The notes under the pieces were generated by a model. The model did no database searches and was not told where the DNA came from. It saw only the letters and a list, made by a program, of their open reading frames with translations. Shown here in pieces: positions 35,545 to 58,190 of a DNA stretch of 64,000 nt. The position numbers and the translations under genes were made by a program. The stretch's first letter is position 1. Every line of letters starts with the position of its first letter. Source of the stretch: Neptuniibacter caesariensis (GTDB lineage: Bacteria > Pseudomonadota > Gammaproteobacteria > Pseudomonadales > Balneatricaceae); NCBI RefSeq assembly GCF_000153345.1, contig NZ_CH724126.1, positions 17,854-81,853 of the forward strand. Reading direction: 5' to 3'.

Positions 35545-36318
35545 CTAAACCCGATCATCAGCTAAAAGCTCATCATCCAGCCAACGCGCTATTAAAATAC
35601 CAAACTCGTTAACGACATCCGCATCAGGGAATTCCTCACTCAAGGCAGCTCCCATACTTTCCAGCTCACTCCCTCTACATAGATGATTTAAAGCCGAATA
35701 TTCAATCATCGAGAGTGTTCGAAAGTGAGGTGAATGGCCCTTTCTCCAGGTCAAAAACGGTATTGGCTGATCCAAACGCACTACCGCTGGCGGCACTTGG
35801 TCTTGATTAATCGCATGCCAGATATCCAGTGTATTGAAGGCGTGATGGCAAAGTTTGAGTGTAGGAACAGGAGAAAACTTATCTAAGGCGATACCTTCAG
35901 CCGCGAGCGATTCCAGCTTCTCACGGGTCATCACCGGTGCATCAGGGCCATCGAACGCACGCCTCAAAGTCCAGTCCATCTGCGCAAGCTCAGCAACCTC
36001 CTGGTCATGTTCTAATGCATCAGCAAGGTACTGAGGAAAGCGTTTCCCATAAAGCCCGATATTACTATGCTCTGATGTATTTGCCTGAACAAATTGGTAG
36101 GCCAGTCGCTCAAACCACTCATCACCAATGTAAGACGCGGTATGCTCAAATGTGTCATATAAGACATCGGCCAACCGCACACGATAAGCATTGTGATAAA
36201 TACCAATTCGTCGTGCTGAACTTATCCCATGTTTGGACTGCTCAGCCCATTCTGCACCTTTACACTCGGAGTCTAGCAGTAACTCCTGAAAGCTATCCTG
36301 CAACGCGGCCAAATTCAT
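35545..36318 (-). CDS. bufC: BufC-like DUF2063 partner of the MNIO enzyme
   Basis: A 257-residue protein of the DUF2063 (HvfC/BufC) family. The N-terminal domain contains the marker segments [14 protein letters not shown] and [21 protein letters not shown] near residues 36-56, then [13 protein letters not shown]. It partners the iron-dependent MNIO enzyme and is thought to recruit the precursor peptide. It overlaps bufB by 4 bp and closes the bufA-bufB-bufC operon at a terminator. No cofactor-binding motif is visible, which fits a scaffold rather than a catalyst. Confidence 0.9.
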
Positions 36319-37142
36319 ACTGCAACCTGCTGACTCAATACCTGATCGGCAATATCCCTTGCATAATTAAGCTCATCAAGCAGTTCTGATAGCTCAGGGA
36401 TATTATCATCACGCTCAATCATCGTTGGGATAAAACCAAAATGACCTAAAGCTTCTCGATATAGCCCCCATACATCCTGGCAAACCGGGTGATCGTGAGT
36501 ATCAATGATGTGATCACCATTATTCTGATGCCCGGCCAGATGGAATTGCATCACGCTCTGCTTTGGGATGCCTCGGATAAATTCAGTAGCAGAGAAACCA
36601 TGGTTAAATGCACTTACATAAATATTATTAATATCCAGTAGTAACTTACATCCAGTGCGCTTGGTAATTTCTGCTAAAAAATCCCACTCAGTCATTTCCG
36701 ATTCTTTAAATTCAACATAGCTGGACACATTCTCGAGTACCAAGGGGCGCTGAAGAAAATCCTGCACCTGCTCAACATTGCGTGTCACAACCTGTAAAGC
36801 TTCTTCTGAAAAGGGTAAGGGCAGAAGGTCATGCAGGTTTCTGCCATGAACACCTGTCCAACATAAATGGTCAGAGATCCACATCGGTTGGATTCTTTGC
36901 TCCAAACGTTTCAACTTACGCAGATATTCAGGATCAACACCTTTCAGTGAACCTATAGACATAGATACACCGTGCATAACCATCGGATAGTCAGCACGAA
37001 TTCTGTCTAGCATGGCCAAAGGTTTACCGCCATCGACCATGTAGTTATCAGAGATGACCTCCAGCCAATCTACCGGCTGTGGTTTTTCCAGAAAATCATG
37101 ATAGTGCTGGCTTCGCAAACCAAGCCCGAAACTAAAAGTCAT
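36315..37142 (-). CDS. bufB: BufB, multinuclear iron-dependent oxidase (MNIO, DUF692)
   Basis: A 275-residue TIM-barrel enzyme of the MNIO family that oxidatively modifies cysteines of a precursor peptide, for bufferins into thiooxazole or oxazolone-type groups. The metal ligands expected for the family are present: H57 in [10 protein letters not shown], the acidic and histidine pair in [10 protein letters not shown] (88-97), E137 in VLENVSSY, D170 in [14 protein letters not shown] with H181, H201 and H205 in FHLAGH, H216 in DTHDHPV, and E243 in MIERDDNIP. It is 33 bp downstream of bufA and overlaps bufC. Neighbours identify the substrate as the small Cys-rich BufA protein. Confidence 0.95.
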
Positions 37143-37175
37143 CTTGATTACCTATTATCTTAGAATGATAACTGC

Positions 37176-37463
37176 TTAAGATTTAATATCAGAGATCACG
37201 CCGTCTTTGTTCAAACATTCTTTTGCAGACAGTGCTTTGAAGCCATGACCACCACACTTATTCTGGCCTTTGCAGCTATGCTCTGCCGTCTTACAGTCTG
37301 AGTTACCTTTACAGGAGTGGACACCGTAACAGTGCACTTTATCACCTGCACCGATGGAAGCACCGGAGCTACCTACAGGTGCTTCAGCTGCCATAGCAGA
37401 TGCACTAAAAGCTACAGCCAAAGCGGCAGATGCAAAAGTCGTTGTTTTTTTAATTGCGCTCAT
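37176..37463 (-). CDS. bufA: BufA bufferin precursor, Cys-rich secreted peptide
   Basis: The 95-residue substrate of BufB. A signal peptide occupies about residues 1-26 (KKTTTFASAALAVAFSASAMA, cleaved near AMA-AE), so the mature product acts in the periplasm. The mature part has six cysteines, C45, C51, C57, C64, C70 and C83, in a repeated pattern CKGNSDC and CKGQNKC, then GGHGFKALSAKEC. This pattern resembles what databases call BufA2-type bufferins, which bind copper. A strong ribosome site AAGGAG precedes the ATG and the upstream 170 bp are AT-rich. It would buffer periplasmic Cu after modification; copper is inferred, not shown. Confidence 0.88.
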   Translation of the reverse strand: MSAIKKTTTFASAALAVAFSASAMAAEAPVGSSGASIGAGDKVHCYGVHSCKGNSDCKTAEHSCKGQNKCGGHGFKALSAKECLNKDGVISDIKS

Positions 37464-37634
37464 AGAATTATCTCCTTAGATAATTAGTAAGGGCCTATAA
37501 CCCAGATCAGTAATCTACTTATTGTTTAAAAACGCATTTTCATGCGCTCTTACTCAAACTACGCAGAGACTTTTTGCATAGATTCAGATTTTCAAAAAAA
37601 ATAACTTTTTTTTAAAAGCTTTGTGTTCGCCAAT

Positions 37635-37658
37635 AAAAAAGGCCCCGAAGGACCTTTT
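37635..37658 (-). terminator. Terminator of the sigma/anti-sigma unit
   Basis: A short GGTCC-TTCG-GGGCC stem with a UUCG loop is followed on the minus strand by TTTTTTATTG just past the anti-sigma stop codon. It separates that unit from the buf operon. Confidence 0.75.
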
Positions 37659-37666
37659 AAATAATC

Positions 37667-38344
37667 TTATAGCGATTGCGTTTGCCAATAGCCCCTATCG
37701 GAGACGGGCCCCATTTCCCAGCCCGAAGGAGCGCCTTCTGCGCCCTCGATCGTCACCACAATTTCTGAATCCAACATCGCCTCAGCCCAGAATGGGTCTA
37801 TAGCAATTCTACGACTGCCCTCTTTCGGCAAGAATCCAAGCGAGACCGGTTCAACGCCTTTTAGCATCAACCACACTTCACAATACTTGCCATCAGGCAT
37901 TGGCATCGGCCTAAGCGATTCCATAACCAGCGCCTGCTCGTCAAATGCAGTTCGCATAACCCAACCAGGTTTGGACTGCTCATCTGAAACAAGATAAATA
38001 AAAACATTCGGTTGCTGCTGATTGACGTTAAAAAATAACCCAATGGACATAACAAGCAGTAAAGAGAACACTGCCAACGCCCTCCAGGGCTGCCAAAATA
38101 GCGTTCGCGGCTTAGTCTTCGCTTCAATCTGACGCCACACATCCTTTGATGGCTGCACTGGCTTAAGGCTGGTATTCAGTACATCCAGATACTCCCGCCA
38201 TTGCTCAACTTCTCGCTGCGCTTCCGCACTAAATGCTAATAAAGCCTCAAAGCGAGCCTTTTCCGCAGGATTAAGCGTACCGAGAACATATTCAGCAGCG
38301 GCTTGATTGCGCTCATCGGGATTAGTTAGATCGAATTCATGCAT
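37667..38344 (-). CDS. Anti-sigma factor, RskA-like
   Basis: A 225-residue membrane anti-sigma factor. The cytoplasmic N-terminus has the sigma-binding signature AAAEYVLGTLNPAEKARFEALL near residues 15-36. One membrane helix (ALAVFSLLLVMSIGLFF, about 88-104) is followed by a periplasmic C-terminal domain of the RskA type, including PMPMPDGKYCEVWLML. Its start overlaps the sigma gene by 19 bp. It would hold the ECF sigma inactive until a periplasmic signal arrives. Placed directly upstream of the buf operon, so it probably governs it. Confidence 0.9.
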   Translation of the reverse strand: MHEFDLTNPDERNQAAAEYVLGTLNPAEKARFEALLAFSAEAQREVEQWREYLDVLNTSLKPVQPSKDVWRQIEAKTKPRTLFWQPWRALAVFSLLLVMSIGLFFNVNQQQPNVFIYLVSDEQSKPGWVMRTAFDEQALVMESLRPMPMPDGKYCEVWLMLKGVEPVSLGFLPKEGSRRIAIDPFWAEAMLDSEIVVTIEGAEGAPSGWEMGPVSDRGYWQTQSL

Positions 38345-38901
38345 GTTTGTAACTTTGCCAACCCTCTTCGAATCCAGGTTTTAACAGTGCCTAAGGAGAT
38401 ATCAGTCTTTTCTGACAAACACTGATGCGTTAACCCTTCGAAATAGGCTAACTCTAAGCACAATCGTTGTTTTTCCGGAATCTCTTGCATACACCGATGA
38501 AGTTGCTGAGTATCCTGCCAGTGGCTTACCTGCTGCTCGTGGGACGCAGTCGGACATGCCAGATCTTGCAAAACCTCATCAGAAACATGCTTATCCGCGT
38601 GCTTGTTCCTTCTTAACAGGTCTAACGCCTGATTGCGTGTAATGGTATTCATCCAGGTTCGCCCCCTGGCTTTGGCAGGATCATAGCTGTCAGCATGGTT
38701 CCATATTTTTATAAAAACCTGCTGTAGGCAATCTTCAGCCAATGCCCTGTCTTTTAAGATACGCAGCGAAATACCCAATAGATTCGCCGAAGTGAGCTTA
38801 TAGAGCTTTTGCAGGTCATTGTGATTACCTTCAGCGCATCCCTTTAAGCAGGCCTCGATGATGCCGTGAATCTCATGATCACTTTCGGATGAACTAATCA
38901 A
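38326..38901 (-). CDS. ECF sigma factor
   Basis: An RNA polymerase sigma factor of the ECF group. From the chosen TTG start the product is about 191 residues. Region 2 contains ILKDRALAEDCLQQVFIKIW (residues about 55-74) and region 4 has the HTH ALDLLRRNKHA-preceded segment and YFEGLTHQCLSEKTDISLGT plus TVKTWIRRGLAKL near the end. I chose the TTG because GGGG lies a few bases before it and the N-terminus then fits the family. An in-frame ATG at 38970 would add 23 residues but has no ribosome site. It pairs with the RskA-like gene downstream. Confidence 0.87.
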   Translation of the reverse strand: MISSSESDHEIHGIIEACLKGCAEGNHNDLQKLYKLTSANLLGISLRILKDRALAEDCLQQVFIKIWNHADSYDPAKARGRTWMNTITRNQALDLLRRNKHADKHVSDEVLQDLACPTASHEQQVSHWQDTQQLHRCMQEIPEKQRLCLELAYFEGLTHQCLSEKTDISLGTVKTWIRRGLAKLQTCMNSI

Positions 38902-38970
38902 ATTGGATGCCCCACAATAAGACCTCAGTTTATAGAATAAAACTTGCCTAAAGTGCGTTATGAAAACCAT

Positions 38971-39285
38971 TGGGTAGCTTAAGCACTGAACCGTTTCAGA
39001 GCTATTTTCCTCTGTTTAGTTCAATAAATTTGTCTACTCAATTTAGGTGCAGTTATTAGCCCGATAGCCATCAACGACAAGATATAGCCTAACCAGCCGG
39101 GTTTCAGACGTTCGATAGAGCACGGTAATTAAACATTTATACGCCATAAATCCTTAGTATAAATACGGAATAACAGTTTAATTAAACAGATCTAGACTGT
39201 AATATCAGTTTACAAGCTCGACTAAAATAAGAATGTAATGGACACGACTTAGGCAAGGAAACGCCTGCATATTTGAGAAGTAGTT
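38971..39285. other. Divergent intergenic region, sigma gene versus luxP-like gene
   Basis: A 315-bp AT-rich gap that must hold the promoters of the sigma unit and of the luxP-like operon. I see several AT-rich -10-like stretches (for example TAAAAT near 39220) but no convincing paired -35/-10 and no clear palindrome, so no site is called. Confidence 0.5.
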
Positions 39286-40410
39286 ATGCAATGCCTAAGC
39301 TTTATTCCTCAATGGGCAGGCCTCATCATAGGCTTGATCTTTTCTATCAACTGTATCGCCGATACAGAGTACATCCGTGTCAGCAGTTTTATTAAAGAGC
39401 ACCCTGAACAACATTCTCTGATGGAGCACTTTGGCGAACTCGTCCGCCAACCGCCCTCTCCCCTGACAGTTCAGAAGCAAAAAACCATTAAAATCGCCGT
39501 TATCTATCCTGGAGTCCAAAGCTCAGATTATTGGCGGCGTAGCCTGATTACATTCAAAACCAGATTAAACGAGCTACGTATAAGCCATGAATTAAAGACC
39601 TTTTTATCCCGCCCCGGGGTGGATAAAGACTTACAAGCAGAACAATTAACTGAAGCTTTAGCCTGGCAACCCAATTATCTTATTTTTAGTGCCGACGCGC
39701 TTGATCATCAAAATACCATTCAGCGAATACTTCTTCAGGGTAAGCCAAAACTAATATTGCAGAATATCACCACGCCACTAAAGCTTTGGGCCAGCCACCC
39801 GCCCTTTCTGTATACCGGATTTGACCACGAGATTGGTACACAACTTCTCGCCGAGCGCATGATTACCCCGGATCATTCTCAATACGCCATGCTATTTTTT
39901 GCCCCCGGATATGTATCAAAAATGCGAGGAGGGACCTTCATATCAGAAGCCAAACAACAAAAAGGGCTTTCACCGGTGGCTAGCTTCTATACCGGCGGCA
40001 ATAGAGGCAAAGCCAGAGCGGCTACGCTCAAAACTCTGAGTAAGAATCCTGATGTTGATATGTTTTTTGCCTGCTCAACGGATATTGCCTTAGGCGTTTC
40101 TGATGCACTTGATGAGCTCAAGCTACATGACCAGATATTAGTGAATGGCTGGGGTGGCGGTGATGCAGAACTCGAGGCACTACTTGCCGGCAAATTGGAT
40201 CTAACCGTAATGCGTCTAAATGATGATGCCAGCGTAGCGATGGCTGAAGCCATTAAACTAGACCTGAATGGAAGCTCTCACCTGGTACCGCAAATCTATT
40301 CAGGAGACATAGTTCTGCTTGATCGCTCTACGACTAAAGAGGAGATACAGAACTATAAAAACAGAGCATTCAGGTACAGCAACGCTGCTGTAAAGCAGTC
40401 TGAGAAATGA
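39286..40410 (+). CDS. luxP: LuxP-like periplasmic autoinducer-2 binding protein
   Basis: A 374-residue periplasmic type I binding protein with a signal peptide (about residues 1-25, ending NCIA). It is collinear with Vibrio LuxP. The residues I remember as AI-2 and borate contacts in V. harveyi LuxP all have identical counterparts: Q78, S80 and W83 in YPGVQSSDYW, N160 in LILQNITTP, R214 in VSKMRGGTF, T265 in FACSTD, W289 in VNGWGGGDAE and R310 in LTVMRLNDD. The C-terminal AFRYSN block also matches. It overlaps the next gene by 4 bp. LuxP normally feeds LuxQ, which here is replaced by a c-di-GMP enzyme. Ligand identity is inferred. Confidence 0.9.
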   Translation: MQCLSFIPQWAGLIIGLIFSINCIADTEYIRVSSFIKEHPEQHSLMEHFGELVRQPPSPLTVQKQKTIKIAVIYPGVQSSDYWRRSLITFKTRLNELRISHELKTFLSRPGVDKDLQAEQLTEALAWQPNYLIFSADALDHQNTIQRILLQGKPKLILQNITTPLKLWASHPPFLYTGFDHEIGTQLLAERMITPDHSQYAMLFFAPGYVSKMRGGTFISEAKQQKGLSPVASFYTGGNRGKARAATLKTLSKNPDVDMFFACSTDIALGVSDALDELKLHDQILVNGWGGGDAELEALLAGKLDLTVMRLNDDASVAMAEAIKLDLNGSSHLVPQIYSGDIVLLDRSTTKEEIQNYKNRAFRYSNAAVKQSEK

Positions 40411-43400
40411 AGATGTTCAGACAACTTCCCTACGCCTCTGTGATCTTGACCATCGTGCTCAGCGCACTTATTGGTGTCACCGGCGCCATGCTATATCAGG
40501 CCTACCAAGGCTCTCAGCAAGCGCTCCAAGAAGAGATTAGATTAACTCATAATCATGATGAGAAGCTTCTTCAGCGTGTCGTTGATGAGTACCTGAAAAA
40601 TATTCGTCTGGTCACCAAAGATCTGGCTTCGAGAAATGATATCCGCTCCAGCCTACTCGCGAATGACCAGATGACAGCCAGTATGGTCCTGACAGAAAAC
40701 CTCCACAACTCACCGCAAATGCAGATGGATGCTCTGGCACTTAGTGGAGAAGATCTGCCACCACTGGTCATCAATAACTCTTCTATACAACGACTGGGAA
40801 TTAATCTGCAAGCGCATCTGCCAACATCAGTTGATGCGATGGAGGGGGAAGAGTGGATTGAGATCAAACATCAAAATAGCAACTATCATTTGATCCGAAT
40901 TCAAGCCCCCATTATCAGCCCTAACCTTGGCGAAGTAATTGGGGCGGTTCACGCATTTTTACTTTTAAATGATAACTTCCTGATCCTCTCCGATTCGCTG
41001 GATATCACCGGTGCAGAAGCGATCACCCTGTATAGTGACCAGCAGATCATCAGTACCATTGACGCTCAGGAAAGCGCTCAGCAGGAATTAAGCAATGCTG
41101 ATCTCTCTTCACCAATCATAGCAACCCCAAAAGGTACAGTGCAGGCCCACCAGATATGGATAGCGGATAAACCATTTATTATCAGTCTGCTAAAACCCGG
41201 CAAGTCCCTTGAAACCCTCTCTCAGGCATACAACCAAAGCCTTCGTAACGGCATCATTCTTGCGATTTTCATCGCCCTTGTCGCCATGTTATTGGTCCGA
41301 TATCTGACCAATCGATCGCTTAAGCGCTTGATTGTTTATGCTGAGAAAGCACCCGCAACGACAACCATGACTCCAGCTTTTGAAGGCGACAATTTTATTG
41401 AATTCGATAAATTGGGTCGACAAATGGAGAGCATGCTCGGAGATATCAGGGAGCAGGAAAACCAGCTGGATGCTATTTTTCATAACACCCCTAGTGCAAT
41501 GTTTCTCAAGTCGACAGCCCTTACTTACCTGACAGCCAACAGACGCTTTAGCGATCTATTTGTCGGCGAAGGCATTGATATCATTGGTAAAACTGATGCC
41601 GATATTTTCCCAGAAGAGGAAGCCAAACTTATTCGGGAGACCGATATTCAGGTGATTAAAACCCGGCAAACGCAACAAACAGAATTCTCCCTGACCACCT
41701 TAGACGGACCACGATATTTCTTAAGCACTAAGTTCCCCATGATCAATGAGCGTGGCGAACTTTATGCCATTGGCGGAATCACCACCGATATATCCGACAA
41801 GGTAAAAGCCGAACGTGAAGCAGAGGTAACACAACAGGTTTTTGAATCTGCAGCAGAAGCGATCTTGATCTATAACCCTGATGGGAAAGTGATTACCAAC
41901 TCATCATTTAATAGAATTACCGGCTACGATGATAAAAAGGCCCGCTTATTTGCCCTATCGATCCTGAAAGACCATCCTGAAATAGATGCAACCCTGAGCA
42001 AAACCGGGCGCTGGCAAGGTGAGAGCATTCGCCGCAAAGCCAACGGTGAACCACTCCCTATCTGGTTATCCATCAGCGCGCTAAGTAGCACAAAGACAGA
42101 GCAATCAAGCTATGTCGCTGTGTTCTCTGACATATCAGAATTAAAAGAAGCTGAGCAAAAGCTTGAGAAGCTGGCACACTATGACAACCTCACGAGCCTG
42201 CCAAATCGCACCCTGTTTTATGACCGTATTGAGTCCTCCCTGGCCAGAGCAGCCAGGAACGGCAAGAAAACGGCATTACTTTTCGTCGACATTGATCGCT
42301 TTAAACAAGTGAACGACAACCATGGACACCACACAGGTGACCAGCTATTAGTTGAAGCCGCGCGACGTATAAGTGCCCATATACGCCTGGGTGATACTGT
42401 AGCCCGCCTGGGGGGCGATGAATTTACCGTTATTCTCAGCGAACTTGATGGCCTGGATCCTGTTCAGGATATCGCTCGACGGATTCAAAAGTCCCTTCGT
42501 GATCCTTTCCGCCTTGATGACAAAGAGATTTTCTCTTCTGCAAGTATTGGCATTGCCATGTATCCAGACGACGGACGTAACGCAGAGTCATTACTCAAGC
42601 ACGCCGATGTCGCTATGTACCATGTAAAAGAGCGCGGCCGCAATGATATCCTGTTCTTCGACAAGGCAATTAACGAGCAGGCAGAAGCCAGAGCGCAACT
42701 GGAAGACAACCTGAAAACCGCCATTAACACTCAGCAGCTGTTTATGGTTTATCAACCCCGCTTCAATATATCGGGAACAGAGATACTCTCTGCTGAAGCA
42801 CTGATCCGCTGGAAACATCCAGAACAGGGCTTTATATCGCCGGGAGACTTCATTCCTCTGGCTGAATCTTGTGGTTTGATTGTGGAGCTGGGACGCTGGG
42901 TGCTTATGCAAGCCTGCCAGGCAGCTCAAGAATGGAATGAAAACACAGGCCAAAACACCCCTGTCTCTGTGAACCTATCAGCTCGCCAGCTACATGATTC
43001 CAGCCTGTTAATAGACATTGAGAATGCGCTTAACCAAACCGGGCTTGACCCATCTCTGCTCGAACTTGAGATTACAGAAACCATGGTCATTCAGGATATG
43101 GAGACGGTAATCTCCCGCCTGGAAGCCATTCGGACTATAGGTGTCAGACTCTCTGTAGACGATTTCGGTACCGGCTATTCGTCTTTGATCTACCTAAAAC
43201 GCTTACCGGTGAGTACAGTTAAAATCGACAAATCGTTTATCGACGATGTACCTGGCTCTAGTGGCAGTGAAAACCTGGTCAAAGCGGTTATATCCATGTC
43301 CCATTCACTTGCACTGAATGTAGTCGCTGAAGGTGTGGAAACCGAGGCTCAATTAAGCTTCCTCACAGAAAATCATTGTGATGAAATTCAGGGATACCTA

Positions 43401-43451
43401 CTGGCCAAACCTGATTCAGCAGAGACTCTGCAACGTTTGATGAGGAAATAA
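40407..43451 (+). CDS. LuxQ-like receptor with PAS-PAS-GGDEF-EAL output
   Basis: A 1014-residue inner-membrane protein. A first helix (about 10-31), a roughly 250-residue periplasmic region, a second helix (282-299) and the adjoining segment match the LuxQ N-terminal half, with shared features such as GEVIGAVHAF, LNDNF and IEFDKLG. Two PAS domains follow (about 355-470 and 475-580). The GGDEF domain (about 590-755) has GGDEF at 669-673 and the inhibitory RLGD at 660-663. The EAL domain has EAL at 797-799, N856, DD at 918-919, K942 and EGVE at 975-978. Both sites look intact, so c-di-GMP synthesis and breakdown are both possible. Confidence 0.92.
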   Translation: MKMFRQLPYASVILTIVLSALIGVTGAMLYQAYQGSQQALQEEIRLTHNHDEKLLQRVVDEYLKNIRLVTKDLASRNDIRSSLLANDQMTASMVLTENLHNSPQMQMDALALSGEDLPPLVINNSSIQRLGINLQAHLPTSVDAMEGEEWIEIKHQNSNYHLIRIQAPIISPNLGEVIGAVHAFLLLNDNFLILSDSLDITGAEAITLYSDQQIISTIDAQESAQQELSNADLSSPIIATPKGTVQAHQIWIADKPFIISLLKPGKSLETLSQAYNQSLRNGIILAIFIALVAMLLVRYLTNRSLKRLIVYAEKAPATTTMTPAFEGDNFIEFDKLGRQMESMLGDIREQENQLDAIFHNTPSAMFLKSTALTYLTANRRFSDLFVGEGIDIIGKTDADIFPEEEAKLIRETDIQVIKTRQTQQTEFSLTTLDGPRYFLSTKFPMINERGELYAIGGITTDISDKVKAEREAEVTQQVFESAAEAILIYNPDGKVITNSSFNRITGYDDKKARLFALSILKDHPEIDATLSKTGRWQGESIRRKANGEPLPIWLSISALSSTKTEQSSYVAVFSDISELKEAEQKLEKLAHYDNLTSLPNRTLFYDRIESSLARAARNGKKTALLFVDIDRFKQVNDNHGHHTGDQLLVEAARRISAHIRLGDTVARLGGDEFTVILSELDGLDPVQDIARRIQKSLRDPFRLDDKEIFSSASIGIAMYPDDGRNAESLLKHADVAMYHVKERGRNDILFFDKAINEQAEARAQLEDNLKTAINTQQLFMVYQPRFNISGTEILSAEALIRWKHPEQGFISPGDFIPLAESCGLIVELGRWVLMQACQAAQEWNENTGQNTPVSVNLSARQLHDSSLLIDIENALNQTGLDPSLLELEITETMVIQDMETVISRLEAIRTIGVRLSVDDFGTGYSSLIYLKRLPVSTVKIDKSFIDDVPGSSGSENLVKAVISMSHSLALNVVAEGVETEAQLSFLTENHCDEIQGYLLAKPDSAETLQRLMRK

Positions 43452-43458
43452 ACAGGCA

Positions 43459-43489
43459 CAAAAAAGCCCGCTATCAAGCGGGCTTTTTT
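43459..43489. terminator. Bidirectional terminator between the receptor gene and pckA
   Basis: An AAAAAAGCCCGCT/GCGGGCTTTTTT stem with an ATCAA-type loop lies between two convergent genes and has T-runs on both strands. Confidence 0.93.
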
Positions 43490-43503
43490 CGGGATCTATA
43501 AAC

Positions 43504-45051
43504 TTACAGCTGAGGACCAGCCGCAATGATCTCTTCAGATACGCCGTCAAACTTCTTGAAGTTTTCAACGAACTGACCGATCAGATCGTTTGCAGTTGCA
43601 TCGTAACCAGACTTATCCGCCCAAGTATCACGTGGGTTAAGAAGAGCTGTTTCAACGCCTTCTACTGCAACTGGAACTTCCAGGTTCAGGCCTTCCAGTT
43701 TCTGAGTTTCAACACCGTTCAGGGAACCGTTCTGGATAGCAGAGATGATGCCACGCGTAGTTGGGATGCTGAAACGCTCACCCGTACCGTAAGAACCACC
43801 TGTCCAGCCGGTGTTAACCAGATAAACTTTAGAACCAAACTCTTCAATACGCTTCATCAGCAGCTCAGCATATACGCGTGCTGGGCGTGGGAAGAATGGC
43901 GCACCAAAGCAAGTAGAGAAAGTCGACTTGATACCACCACCAGAGCCCATCTCTGTAGAACCTACCAGCGCTGTATAACCTGACAGGAAGTGGTACGCAG
44001 CCGCTTCTTTAGTCAATACAGAAACTGGAGGAAGTACACCTGTCAGGTCACAGGTCAGGAAGACAATCGCATTTGGCTCTTCGCCCATATTCGATACAGT
44101 ACGCTTCTCAACGTGCTGCAATGGGTATGCACAACGACCATTCTCAGTCAGAGAAGTGTCATCGTAATCAGCTGTGCGCGCATCATTCAGAGCAACGTTC
44201 TCAACGATCGCACCAAAGCGGATCGCATCCCAAATGATGGGTTCGTTTTTCTGGCTCAGGTTGATGGTCTTCGCGTAGCAACCACCTTCCAGGTTAAATA
44301 CCACACCTTTGCCCCAACCGTGCTCATCATCACCGATCAGGTAACGAGAAGGGTCAGCAGAAAGGGTCGTTTTACCTGTACCAGACAGGCCGAAGAACAA
44401 CGTTGTGCTGTTGTCATCACCAACGTTTGCAGAACAGTGCATTGGTAGCACGTCTTTTTCAGGAAGCAGGAAGTTCTGTACAGAGAACATCGCCTTCTTC
44501 ATCTCACCCGCATAACGCATACCCGCAAGTAATACTTTGCGTTTAGCGAAGTTGATGATTACACAGCCATCGCTGTTAGTGCCATCGCGCTCTGGTTCAC
44601 ATTCGAAACCAGCAACGTTCAGGATCTGCCACTCTTCTTTCGATTTTGGGTTGTACTCTGCAGGACGAATAAACAGATTCTGGCCGAACAGGTTCTGCCA
44701 AGCCGTCTGTGTCGTCATACGTACAGCAAGATAGTGGTTGGGATCAGAACCAACATGGACATTCGCCACGAAGTGTTCTTTATCCGCCAGGAACTCTTCT
44801 ACACGAGTCCATAGCGCGTCAAATTTGTCTGAATCGAATGGGCGGTTAATGCTACCCCAATCGATAGAATCAGCAGTACTTGGTTCTTCGACGATGAAAC
44901 GATCCATCGGCGAACGACCAGTACGCTTACCTGTTGTCACAACCAATGCGCCAGTGTCAGCAAGTGTTCCTTCACCGTTGGCAATGGCTTTCTCTACCAG
45001 CTGAGCTGGGCTTAGGTTTTGGTTCGTAATATTAACAGAATCTTTGGTCAT
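43504..45051 (-). CDS. pckA: Phosphoenolpyruvate carboxykinase (ATP)
   Basis: Converts oxaloacetate and ATP to phosphoenolpyruvate, the gluconeogenic entry. The product is 515 residues. It has the kinase-1a P-loop [13 protein letters not shown] and the 2a motif LIGDDEHGW about 20 residues further on, both near residues 225-255. [10 protein letters not shown] and the metal/substrate histidine in MHCSANVG are the other conserved parts. The pckA-hslO-hslR-yrfG neighbourhood is as in enterics, with a PAP2 gene between hslO and hslR. Its upstream region has AT-rich -10-like sites but no well-spaced promoter I can call. Confidence 0.97.
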
Positions 45052-55070: not shown

Positions 55071-58000
55071 TCAATTCAGCAAGCCTCTTAACCGCTTGAG
55101 TAAGTCACTACCTCTCTTTTCAAAATGGCTAAGTTTTTGCGAATCGACCTGCTCACCTGCTAAACATTCAGCTATAAATTGGTCAGCCTGCTGGTGAATC
55201 TCCTCATGCATACTTCGGATCTGCTGGAGCTCCGAGCAAGCTTCAAAACGAGTTTCGTCCGCCGTTTTTAACCACTCTTCAAATTGGCAACGTTGTTTGA
55301 TTACCTCGGGCAACTCCGTTCCACCCGCTTTCAGAAAGTTATGCAACTCTCTAGACCAGGTTCGTTGCTCTACAATCGCAAACAGAAATGGCAAGTTATC
55401 CCGACCAATGACATCCCGATTTACCCATGAAGGATCCGGCCTCCAGGACGCAATAAAATCAGCGATACAATGTGCTTGCATCGGCTTCGCAATCACATAA
55501 CCCTGGGCCAGTTCACAGCCCATCATGAGAAGCATTTCACCTTGCGCTACCGATTCCACACCCTCGGCAATCGTTTGGCAACGGAACGCATTCGCTAAAC
55601 CTAAAACTCCCTCCAGAATAGATAGGTCTTCTAAATCATCGAGCATATCGCAGACAAAGCTACGGTCGATCTTCAATAGATGTGCGGGCAGTTGTTTCAG
55701 ATAGGTCAACGAAGAGTAACCGGTACCAAAATCATCCAGGGCGAAGCTGATCCCGATATCTCTACACTCGTTAATAATGGTTGATACTCGATTAATGTCG
55801 TTTAGTGCGCTGGTTTCAAGCACTTCAAGTTCAAGATCCCCTGGTAAAACCCCTGGGTGAGCAGCCAGCATTTGTTGCAGACGATCGACAAAATCAGGCA
55901 GCTGTAGATGTAAGGCATCAACATTGACACTGACCGGGACATCTAATCCTTGCTGATGCCATTGATCAATCTGTGTCATCGCCTGTTCAAGCACCCAATC
56001 ACCCACCTCAACGACCAACCCGGCATCGCCGGCAATCACCGGTAAGAAATCCCCAGGCATAACCAAACCATTCTCAGGATGATTCCACCGTATCAGCGCC
56101 TCGGCTCCCACTACCTGCCCGGTACGCATATTTACTTTTGGCTGATAATAAAGTTCGAATTCCCGGTTATTGAGCGCCGAATGAATACGTAGAACCTGAT
56201 CGTGATGGCCCCGCACACTTCGGTCATGCTCTGTATCAAATATATGATAACGATTTTTGCCACTTTGCTTGGCAACATACATGGCCTGATCTGCCTGACG
56301 AATCAGTTGGTCGGCATCAATTTCATCCGCTTGCGGGTAGAACGTAATCCCTATACTTGCAGAAACACAGATTTCAGTATGGTTCATGAATATAGGCTTA
56401 GAGATCGCCTTTAGAAGTCTCTCAAGTACTGGCAAGCTCTCTTCAGAGCTGTGTAAATCCTGCAGCACAACGACGAATTCATCCCCACCTAAACGCGCCA
56501 GGCTATCACCTTCACGAAGGGCTTGCTTACTGCGCTCAGCCAGTTCGATCAAGAGCTTATCCCCGATACTATGACCGTGGGTATCATTGACCTCTTTAAA
56601 CCCATCAAGATCGAAAAAAGCAACGGCGAGCAAACGTTTATGTCGCTTAGCTTGTAAAATAGCCTGCTGTAATCGGTCGGAGAGTAGCACCCTGTTTGGC
56701 AGCCCGGTAAGCGCATCGTAATGGGCTATCTTTTCCAGCTGTTGCTGCTGCTTTTTCAGCGCCGTTATATCTGAAAACAGAGAGACATAGCGTAGCAGTT
56801 CGCCATTCTCGTCTTTGATCGCACTAACCGTCTGGATAGCTGCAAAAATCTCACCATCTTTACGACGATTCCAGATCTCGTTGGTCCAGTTTCCCTTTTC
56901 GCTTAGGCTTTTCCACATCTCCGCAAAATATTGATCATCATGGTGACCCGAACTAAATATTCTCGGGTTTTGGCCAATCACTTCGTTTCTGCTATACCCG
57001 GTGATGCGGCTAAACGCCAAATTAGCATTCTGTATGGTGCCCTCAGGGTCCGTGATCATAATCCCTTCATTGGCATGTTCAAAAACACTGGCAGCCTGTA
57101 ACAGAGAGCCTTCTGCTGCTTTTTTCTCAGTAATCTCTGTATGGGTTCCGGAAACCCATTCAGGCTTTCCAGACTCACTCCATGCAACCACTTTCCCGCG
57201 GTCTAACACCCAAACCCAGTGCCCCTCTTTATGCCGCATGCGCACTTCACACTGATAGGCGTCAGACTCTCCAGAGAAATGTTTATGGAGAGCCTCTCGA
57301 GAACGCTCCACATCATCTGGATGTACGTACATCCACCAGGTTTCAATGCTAATAGGTTGCAACTCATCCAGTGTATAACCCAGGGTCGCGGCCCAACGGG
57401 TGTTCAGATGGGCTTCCCCCGTACGGACATTCCATTCCCAAGTTCCGACATCCGTGCCCCAAATGATATTGCGAAGGCTCTGGCGCTGGCTGGATAGCTC
57501 ATCGCGCAACTTCAATCCACGATGAATACTAAACACTAATCCCAGGATGATGATCGCCTGAAGCGTTATGCCCCCCCAAAGGATCCACTCTTTCTGCTGG
57601 CGAACCTCTTCTATCTCGCGAACTTGTTGATCAACCATCTCTTCTAGCCGGCTTTGATAATGCCAAAGCGCCTGATCATCATGCCTTCCAGGGGTTATAT
57701 CGTTGATCACCGATAACAGCAGGGTTTTACCCGAAAAAGAGAAAGGGTTGGACTGAACCGCCACTGTGCGGATATCCCCAGAAGCCAGTTCATGACGGAA
57801 AATAAAGTAATTTCGCCCCTGAGATTTAGCGAGTTTACGCTCCTCTTTTACCTGTTCAGGGGTGAGAGTATTAATTTGCTGGATACTCATCGCTCGAAGC
57901 GTTGAACGACCATATCCATAAAAAGTTGCTGCCGCAGGGTTGGCATCGATAATTTTCCCTGAAGAGGGATCGATTAACAGCATCACCGAACCATGCTTGG

Positions 58001-58190
58001 CAAAGATATCTTTAAAGTCAGGAGCGCTGGAAATAGGGCTGTTTGCCGTAACGGATAAGCTGGCAAATAAGCAGAATAAAATAGCCGATGGCCTAAACCA
58101 ACGGCTAATGAGACTACCCTGTCCAGAATTGAGTCCAACTTGTCTAGAGAAGCGTTTTAATAGCTCCCTGGCACGTACTACAGGATTCAT
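55071..58190 (-). CDS. PAS-GGDEF-EAL-CZB c-di-GMP enzyme
   Basis: A 1039-residue membrane-associated protein. A first hydrophobic region (32-50) is followed by a PAS domain (about 60-165), a coiled coil and a second helix (203-223). Two more PAS domains follow (about 236-355 and 365-475). GGDEF is at 568-572 with the inhibitory REGD before it; EAL is at 697-699 with N756, DD at 819-820, K840 and EGVE at 876-879. The C-terminal domain (about 935-1035) has the pattern of a CZB zinc-binding domain: H950, C968 in RCQFEEWL, H995 and H999. Both c-di-GMP sites look intact. It sits upstream of a c-di-GMP riboswitch. Confidence 0.93.
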   Translation of the reverse strand: MNPVVRARELLKRFSRQVGLNSGQGSLISRWFRPSAILFCLFASLSVTANSPISSAPDFKDIFAKHGSVMLLIDPSSGKIIDANPAAATFYGYGRSTLRAMSIQQINTLTPEQVKEERKLAKSQGRNYFIFRHELASGDIRTVAVQSNPFSFSGKTLLLSVINDITPGRHDDQALWHYQSRLEEMVDQQVREIEEVRQQKEWILWGGITLQAIIILGLVFSIHRGLKLRDELSSQRQSLRNIIWGTDVGTWEWNVRTGEAHLNTRWAATLGYTLDELQPISIETWWMYVHPDDVERSREALHKHFSGESDAYQCEVRMRHKEGHWVWVLDRGKVVAWSESGKPEWVSGTHTEITEKKAAEGSLLQAASVFEHANEGIMITDPEGTIQNANLAFSRITGYSRNEVIGQNPRIFSSGHHDDQYFAEMWKSLSEKGNWTNEIWNRRKDGEIFAAIQTVSAIKDENGELLRYVSLFSDITALKKQQQQLEKIAHYDALTGLPNRVLLSDRLQQAILQAKRHKRLLAVAFFDLDGFKEVNDTHGHSIGDKLLIELAERSKQALREGDSLARLGGDEFVVVLQDLHSSEESLPVLERLLKAISKPIFMNHTEICVSASIGITFYPQADEIDADQLIRQADQAMYVAKQSGKNRYHIFDTEHDRSVRGHHDQVLRIHSALNNREFELYYQPKVNMRTGQVVGAEALIRWNHPENGLVMPGDFLPVIAGDAGLVVEVGDWVLEQAMTQIDQWHQQGLDVPVSVNVDALHLQLPDFVDRLQQMLAAHPGVLPGDLELEVLETSALNDINRVSTIINECRDIGISFALDDFGTGYSSLTYLKQLPAHLLKIDRSFVCDMLDDLEDLSILEGVLGLANAFRCQTIAEGVESVAQGEMLLMMGCELAQGYVIAKPMQAHCIADFIASWRPDPSWVNRDVIGRDNLPFLFAIVEQRTWSRELHNFLKAGGTELPEVIKQRCQFEEWLKTADETRFEACSELQQIRSMHEEIHQQADQFIAECLAGEQVDSQKLSHFEKRGSDLLKRLRGLLN

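Follow-up and report, generated by a model that had tools for sequence, protein, structure and literature searches.

Can a receptor of the LuxP-LuxQ type deliver its signal straight to cyclic di-GMP (c-di-GMP)? The question is raised by two genes, P0001 and P0002, in a 64,000-nucleotide stretch of the Neptuniibacter caesariensis genome (contig NZ_CH724126.1, positions 17,854 to 81,853), referred to here as the window. A first-pass annotation of this DNA had described an overlapping plus-strand module at 39286-43451, in which a LuxP/LuxQ-type sensor is joined to GGDEF and EAL domains without a kinase; both open reading frames (ORFs) were found where it placed them (Table 1), and homology, fold, gene order and catalytic motifs agree with this prediction from sequence. 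We consider it probable that the pair is an outside-in receptor, in which the LuxP-type protein would bind autoinducer-2 (AI-2) and the LuxQ-type partner would shift the balance between GGDEF and EAL activities without a phosphorelay, serving to eavesdrop in a host that lacks luxS.

Predicted ligand site of the LuxP-type protein

When P0001 was compared with the Protein Data Bank (PDB) by phmmer, the LuxP chains of Vibrio harveyi were matched at an E-value of 1e-91 across residues 32-366, while the next protein reached 2.8e-8; ribose and allose binding proteins are only distantly similar. The N-terminal sequence suggests that P0001 is secreted. In the LuxP alignment it carries the same residue as LuxP at all eight positions (Q78, S80, W83, N160, R214, T265, W289 and R310) that we take to be the AI-2 and borate contacts. 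The conservation claimed by the first-pass annotation is thus upheld for those positions, and R214 and R310, on whose placement the annotation had staked its claim, do lie at contact positions.

The contacts were then checked in 107 distinct LuxP-like proteins, comprising P0001 and the proteins of 121 loci, each set of duplicates being counted once. None of the 33 LuxPs partnered by a GGDEF-EAL receptor has lost any of the eight, and deviations are confined to four proteins, those of L050 and L126 at one position, L070 at two and L071 at five. Since invariance among the 33 GGDEF-EAL-partnered proteins is limited to 54 of 332 core positions, conservation of all eight by chance would be unlikely (3e-7), yet the test would not separate AI-2 from another ligand bound in the same manner. 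At L071, the relative of LuxP in which five of the eight contacts are lost adjoins a LuxQ-periplasm protein of 868 amino acids (L071:6383-8989) for which Pfam gives nothing further at E up to 0.01.

Sensor and output halves of the receptor

The LuxQ-like N-terminal half claimed for P0002 is borne out by three lines of comparison. Pfam LuxQ-periplasm (PF09308), whose absence had been named as a ground for dropping the proposal, is matched above its cut-off (7.7e-8; 32.6 bits against 25.7), and residues 10-386 are collinear with residues 6-383 of NCBIfam LuxQ_Vibrio (8.1e-30), at a score of 103 bits that falls far below the whole-protein equivalog cut-off of 1200, as would be expected when the second half differs. 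Residues 1-354 show weak sequence similarity to LuxQ structures (3c30, E 3.4e-4); an AlphaFold2 model of residues 28-288, with a pLDDT of 91.2, nevertheless placed LuxQ entries at the top of both structure comparisons, so that the predicted sensor fold is clearly of the LuxQ type.

In the output half, HisKA, HATPase and receiver domains are absent from the Pfam matches of P0002, and GGDEF and EAL domains stand in their place behind two PAS domains, all four being matched as the annotation had stated. Ten residues of the EAL motifs (E797, N856, E888, E891, D918, D919, K939, E975, E978 and Q995), which we take to be catalytic, are identical in all 33 receptors, and a canonical GGDEF motif is present in 29 of them, P0002 included. 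With these motifs intact, P0002 is predicted to hold both synthesis and breakdown activities.

Table 1. Positions of the gene pair and its predicted domains within the window
Feature	Position	Strand	Evidence
luxP-like gene, P0001 (374 aa); product predicted to bind AI-2 in the periplasm, with a hydrophobic N-terminal segment ahead of Peripla_BP_4	39286-40410	+	Pfam PF13407 4.8e-12; PDB LuxP E 1e-91; contacts kept 8/8
P0002 (1014 aa), LuxQ-like membrane receptor with PAS-PAS-GGDEF-EAL output; start overlaps luxP stop by four bases	40407-43451	+	Pfam, NCBIfam
Modelled region of P0002, residues 28-288: periplasmic sensor domain of the LuxQ type plus its flanking helices	40488-41270	+	PF09308 7.7e-8; AlphaFold2 pLDDT 91.2; LuxQ top in both structure comparisons
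Pfam LuxQ-periplasm within the P0002 sensor domain	40512-41078	+	PF09308
First PAS domain, P0002 residues 358-465	41478-41801	+	PF08448 4.2e-15
Second PAS domain, P0002 residues 484-578	41856-42140	+	PF13426 5.2e-16
GGDEF (diguanylate cyclase) domain, P0002 residues 590-746; intact GGDEF motif 669-673; RxxD I-site-like motif 660-663	42174-42644	+	PF00990 4e-51; motif check
EAL (c-di-GMP phosphodiesterase) domain, P0002 residues 767-1002; checked catalytic residues intact	42705-43412	+	PF00563 1.1e-73; residue check

Recurrence of the pair and exchange of outputs

The survey for further LuxP-GGDEF/EAL pairs that the annotation had called for yielded 33 distinct pairs after duplicate removal, the window's included. 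A search of 96 genomes (the host's own and 95 relatives) gave matches in 39, partly to general sugar-binding proteins, from which 41 strong LuxP loci in 33 relatives were taken; 16 of these are followed by a LuxQ-like GGDEF-EAL receptor, one (L032) is cut by a contig end, one (L045) is followed by a lone sensor domain, and 23 have other partners or none. Additionally, a scan of named genomes, covering the best 80 of 295 relatives, found a GGDEF-EAL partner in 29 of the 80. The pairs occur in Neptuniibacter, Neptunomonas, Marinobacterium, Oceanospirillum, Pontibacterium and Amphritea, as well as in Halomonas, Oceanisphaera, Zobellella, Labrenzia, Stappia and unclassified Oceanospirillaceae. LuxP lies directly upstream of the receptor on the same strand in all 32 related pairs, with gaps of -164 to +47 bases (median 0), the large overlaps of which may reflect over-extended starts. 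In a class-level sample, PF09308 exceeded its cut-off in one of 369 genomes, the window's own, with one further match below the cut-off; the domain thus appears rare at this level, where a divergent copy could be missed.

To label partners at the 80 named loci, the two ORFs lying closest downstream on the same strand were compared by phmmer with pieces of P0002 and of the receptors of L050, L052 and L055; ten labels (L074, L075, L095, L096, L104, L109, L112, L123, L136 and L147), and those of L031-L071, were set by hand. Eleven of the 32 related GGDEF-EAL receptors were scanned with Pfam, and all 11 carry LuxQ-periplasm, GGDEF and EAL above cut-off. Of 17 HisKA_3 labels, nine were Pfam-scanned, and those of L056, L058, L060, L062, L063, L064, L067 and L068 rest on likeness only.

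By these labels, the 107 distinct LuxPs comprise 33 with a GGDEF-EAL partner, 55 with a kinase, nine with no partner in the place looked at, and ten with other or undetermined partners. Pfam identified hybrid kinases with two receivers (L050, L053), HisKA_3 kinases (such as L055 and L066) and PAS kinases (L049, L052); several partner kinases (such as L049, L052, L057 and L059) gave no LuxQ-periplasm match by Pfam. In Desulfococcaceae bacterium HSG9, the LuxP neighbour (L104:7206-9443) combines LuxQ-periplasm and PAS domains with a SpoIIE phosphatase output, apparently a further output swap on the same sensor. Receptors of about 575 amino acids with a LuxQ-periplasm-PAS-PAS layout and no GGDEF-EAL occur in Halomonas salinarum (L096:7274-9001) and Onishia taeanensis (L112:7143-8873); their LuxPs fall inside the GGDEF-EAL part of the LuxP tree, consistent with either a secondary loss of GGDEF-EAL or a new partner elsewhere. 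At L107, L119, L121, L122 and L152 (Motilimonas), two groups of LuxP homologues keep all eight contacts, and the ORFs in the stretch retrieved around them include no detected LuxQ-like partner.

The LuxP tree, built by a quick method from 105 rows with L070 and L071 left out and only SH-aLRT (approximate likelihood ratio) support, places the GGDEF-EAL rows in three groups (Oceanospirillaceae/Halomonadaceae, Aeromonadaceae and Stappiaceae). Two label changes are needed when kinase and GGDEF-EAL rows alone are counted, and nine for the GGDEF-EAL label when the 17 rows with other or undetermined partners are included; a tree joining all 33 GGDEF-EAL rows against the 55 kinase rows was not rejected (approximately unbiased test, p-AU 0.271). 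A repeated origin of the GGDEF-EAL version is thus suggested, not shown. We lean, by a small measure, towards the view that LuxP-LuxQ is a portable AI-2 input, found in several families of proteobacteria, whose output part can be exchanged (hybrid kinase, HisKA_3 kinase, SpoIIE phosphatase or GGDEF-EAL), and that the GGDEF-EAL version would be a widespread marine class, possibly with more than one origin, that converts AI-2, in luxS-less species purely that of other species, to c-di-GMP in one step.

Proposed signalling route, alternatives and known systems

The host genome (3,924,755 bases in 6 contigs) holds one LuxP match and one LuxQ-periplasm match. At 98.1% completeness it gave no match to LuxS (PF02664), while five of 14 control genomes were positive, and none to AdoHcyase (PF05221), so the usual routes of S-adenosylhomocysteine recycling were not found. 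Quorum sensing by self-produced AI-2, for which luxS would be expected in the same genome, therefore does not appear to describe this host; the AI-2 would come from other species and the function would be eavesdropping. Among genomes with GGDEF-EAL pairs, luxS is present in 21 of 32 and absent from 11 (33 pairs; the L085 genome lay outside the search), so that producers as well as listeners are represented in the class. The 11 comprise six of the host's own genus (the window's among them), two Oceanospirillum and three Stappiaceae; one of the six has a completeness of only 88%, and such figures cover only part of the 32.

As drawn from domain anatomy, AI-2, most likely in its borate form, would close the periplasmic LuxP-type protein, which, bound to the LuxQ-type domain, would alter the receptor dimer; the helices and PAS domains would relay this change to GGDEF and EAL, and the balance of c-di-GMP synthesis and breakdown would shift, so that c-di-GMP rises or falls. 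GGDEF catalysis requires a symmetric pair. AI-2 is described as inducing asymmetry in the periplasmic domains of LuxPQ (cited in PMC5231407). On these grounds we would guess, with a little less assurance than for the route itself, that AI-2 binding shifts the receptor towards EAL and brings c-di-GMP down.

Several observations weigh against this route. Conservation of the contacts appears partly due to kinship among LuxPs and, being equally strong in kinase-partnered LuxPs (53 of 55), is uninformative on output; the absence of luxS from a third of the pair genomes (11/32) means that the ligand may have changed there; the LuxQ-periplasm match of P0002 is modest; the GGDEF motif is degenerate in four of the 33 receptors; and the RxxD I-site motif is found in only ten of them, including P0002.

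The alternative that fares best, which we hold possible but rather unlikely, accepts AI-2 as ligand and makes the output one-directional, a regulated phosphodiesterase in which GGDEF is merely regulatory. The contrast between EAL residues intact throughout and occasionally degenerate GGDEF motifs would fit, as would the best NCBIfam match of P0002, the phosphodiesterase DibA family, although its 554.8 bits lie well under the cut-off of 980; P0002 itself, however, has a canonical GGDEF and the RxxD motif, and ScrC (PMC11315295) and MbaA (PMC8967002), of the same layout, are bifunctional. We give less credence to the same module serving another ligand, with the LuxP-like protein of luxS-less hosts sensing a small diol, sugar or borate ester. 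All seven own-genus genomes bearing this LuxP lack luxS, and P0001 belongs to the sugar-binding Peripla_BP_4 superfamily; but the full set of contacts persists alike in the luxS-positive (21) and luxS-negative (11) hosts among the 32 checked, even though the diverged L070 and L071 show that contact residues can drift. That P0001 works as an ordinary binding protein in transport, beside a receptor sensing something else, as its distant ribose/allose binding protein similarity and the nine LuxPs without a LuxQ-like partner might suggest, is very improbable given that the eight nearby window proteins scanned include no transporter match and that LuxP pairs with a LuxQ-like protein in all 32 related GGDEF-EAL pairs and, besides, at loci whose output is a kinase or SpoIIE. 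Equally hard to credit is a decaying relic, to which receptors without GGDEF-EAL (L096, L112, L095) and the absence of LuxP from four of ten own-genus genomes could be likened, since both window frames are full length with every checked catalytic and contact residue intact.

The AI-2-to-c-di-GMP receptor that we favour shares with Vibrio LuxP-LuxQ (PDB 1jx6, 1zhh, 2hj9, 2hje and 3c38) the LuxP contact residues, the LuxQ-type periplasmic fold and the N-terminal layout through the first PAS domain. It differs in its GGDEF-EAL output, in having no histidine kinase or receiver match in Pfam with which to feed LuxU-LuxO, and in the lack of a luxS match in the genome. Other receptors turn AI-2 directly into changes in cyclase activity or c-di-GMP, likewise without a phosphorelay (PMC7584622, PMC9637222), but they bind it by their own dCACHE or GAPES1 domain and need no LuxP. 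P0002 fits neither description, dCache_1 reaching only E 0.063 (13.2 bits against a cut-off of 45) and GAPES1 being absent from the eight Pfam families listed for it, most matches above E 0.1 having been filtered out. To our knowledge, NspS-MbaA of Vibrio cholerae is not a LuxP/LuxQ-periplasm system, and it is set apart here by description. Its ligand is a polyamine, yet, as is proposed for the present pair, the balance between cyclase and phosphodiesterase in a GGDEF-EAL membrane receptor is governed by a periplasmic binding protein, norspermidine-bound NspS switching MbaA to cyclase (PMC8967002). ScrB-ScrC of Vibrio parahaemolyticus, also compared by description, similarly joins a periplasmic binding protein to a GGDEF-EAL receptor answering an extracellular signal; that signal is the S-signal from ScrA, not AI-2, and signal-bound ScrB switches ScrC to phosphodiesterase (PMC11315295). 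The pairing of a binding-protein gene with a GGDEF-EAL membrane receptor is common to all three, and the two closest experimental systems respond with opposite sign.

The annotation's statement that no LuxPQ of this design had been characterised held for the literature searched, but the genes themselves had been noticed. In 2008 a LuxP homologue and its operon partner were reported in the same strain, Neptuniibacter caesariensis MED92 (MED92_04774/04779; PMC2561040); these are almost certainly the present pair, and the host genome has one LuxP match. There, the partner is called a presumed transcriptional regulator with PAS domains, and the main text does not contain GGDEF, diguanylate, cyclic or phosphodiesterase; one c-di-GMP protein with a LuxQ-periplasm domain was counted in 2016 (PMC4822843). 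With other direct AI-2-to-c-di-GMP receptors also known, the novelty is limited to the joining of an input and an output that are each known, a combination that is conserved and directly testable. If the reading is correct, textbook LuxPQ would belong to a family of modular inputs, and AI-2 would be translated straight into the messenger of biofilm and motility throughout a class of bacteria that are mostly marine. The luxS-less species would be clean natural listeners, in which the role of AI-2 as an interspecies cue could be addressed free of the metabolic side effects of luxS mutation, and receptors sharing one input with kinase, phosphatase or c-di-GMP outputs would offer a matched set for the study of transmembrane signalling.

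Around the pair, an Rfam search of 38900-43600 returned no regulatory RNA at gathering score. A second large PAS-GGDEF-EAL protein lies at 55071-58190 on the minus strand, with a sub-cut-off match to CZB (zinc-binding) after its EAL domain. The divergent minus-strand neighbours at 35545-38970 encode a sigma-70-family factor (ECF-like), an RskA-like anti-sigma factor, an MbnB/TglH/ChrH enzyme, a DUF2063 protein and, at 37176-37463, a cysteine-rich peptide of 95 amino acids with a signal-like start; this cluster resembles the bufferin-type clusters for metal-binding RiPPs (ribosomally synthesised and post-translationally modified peptides).

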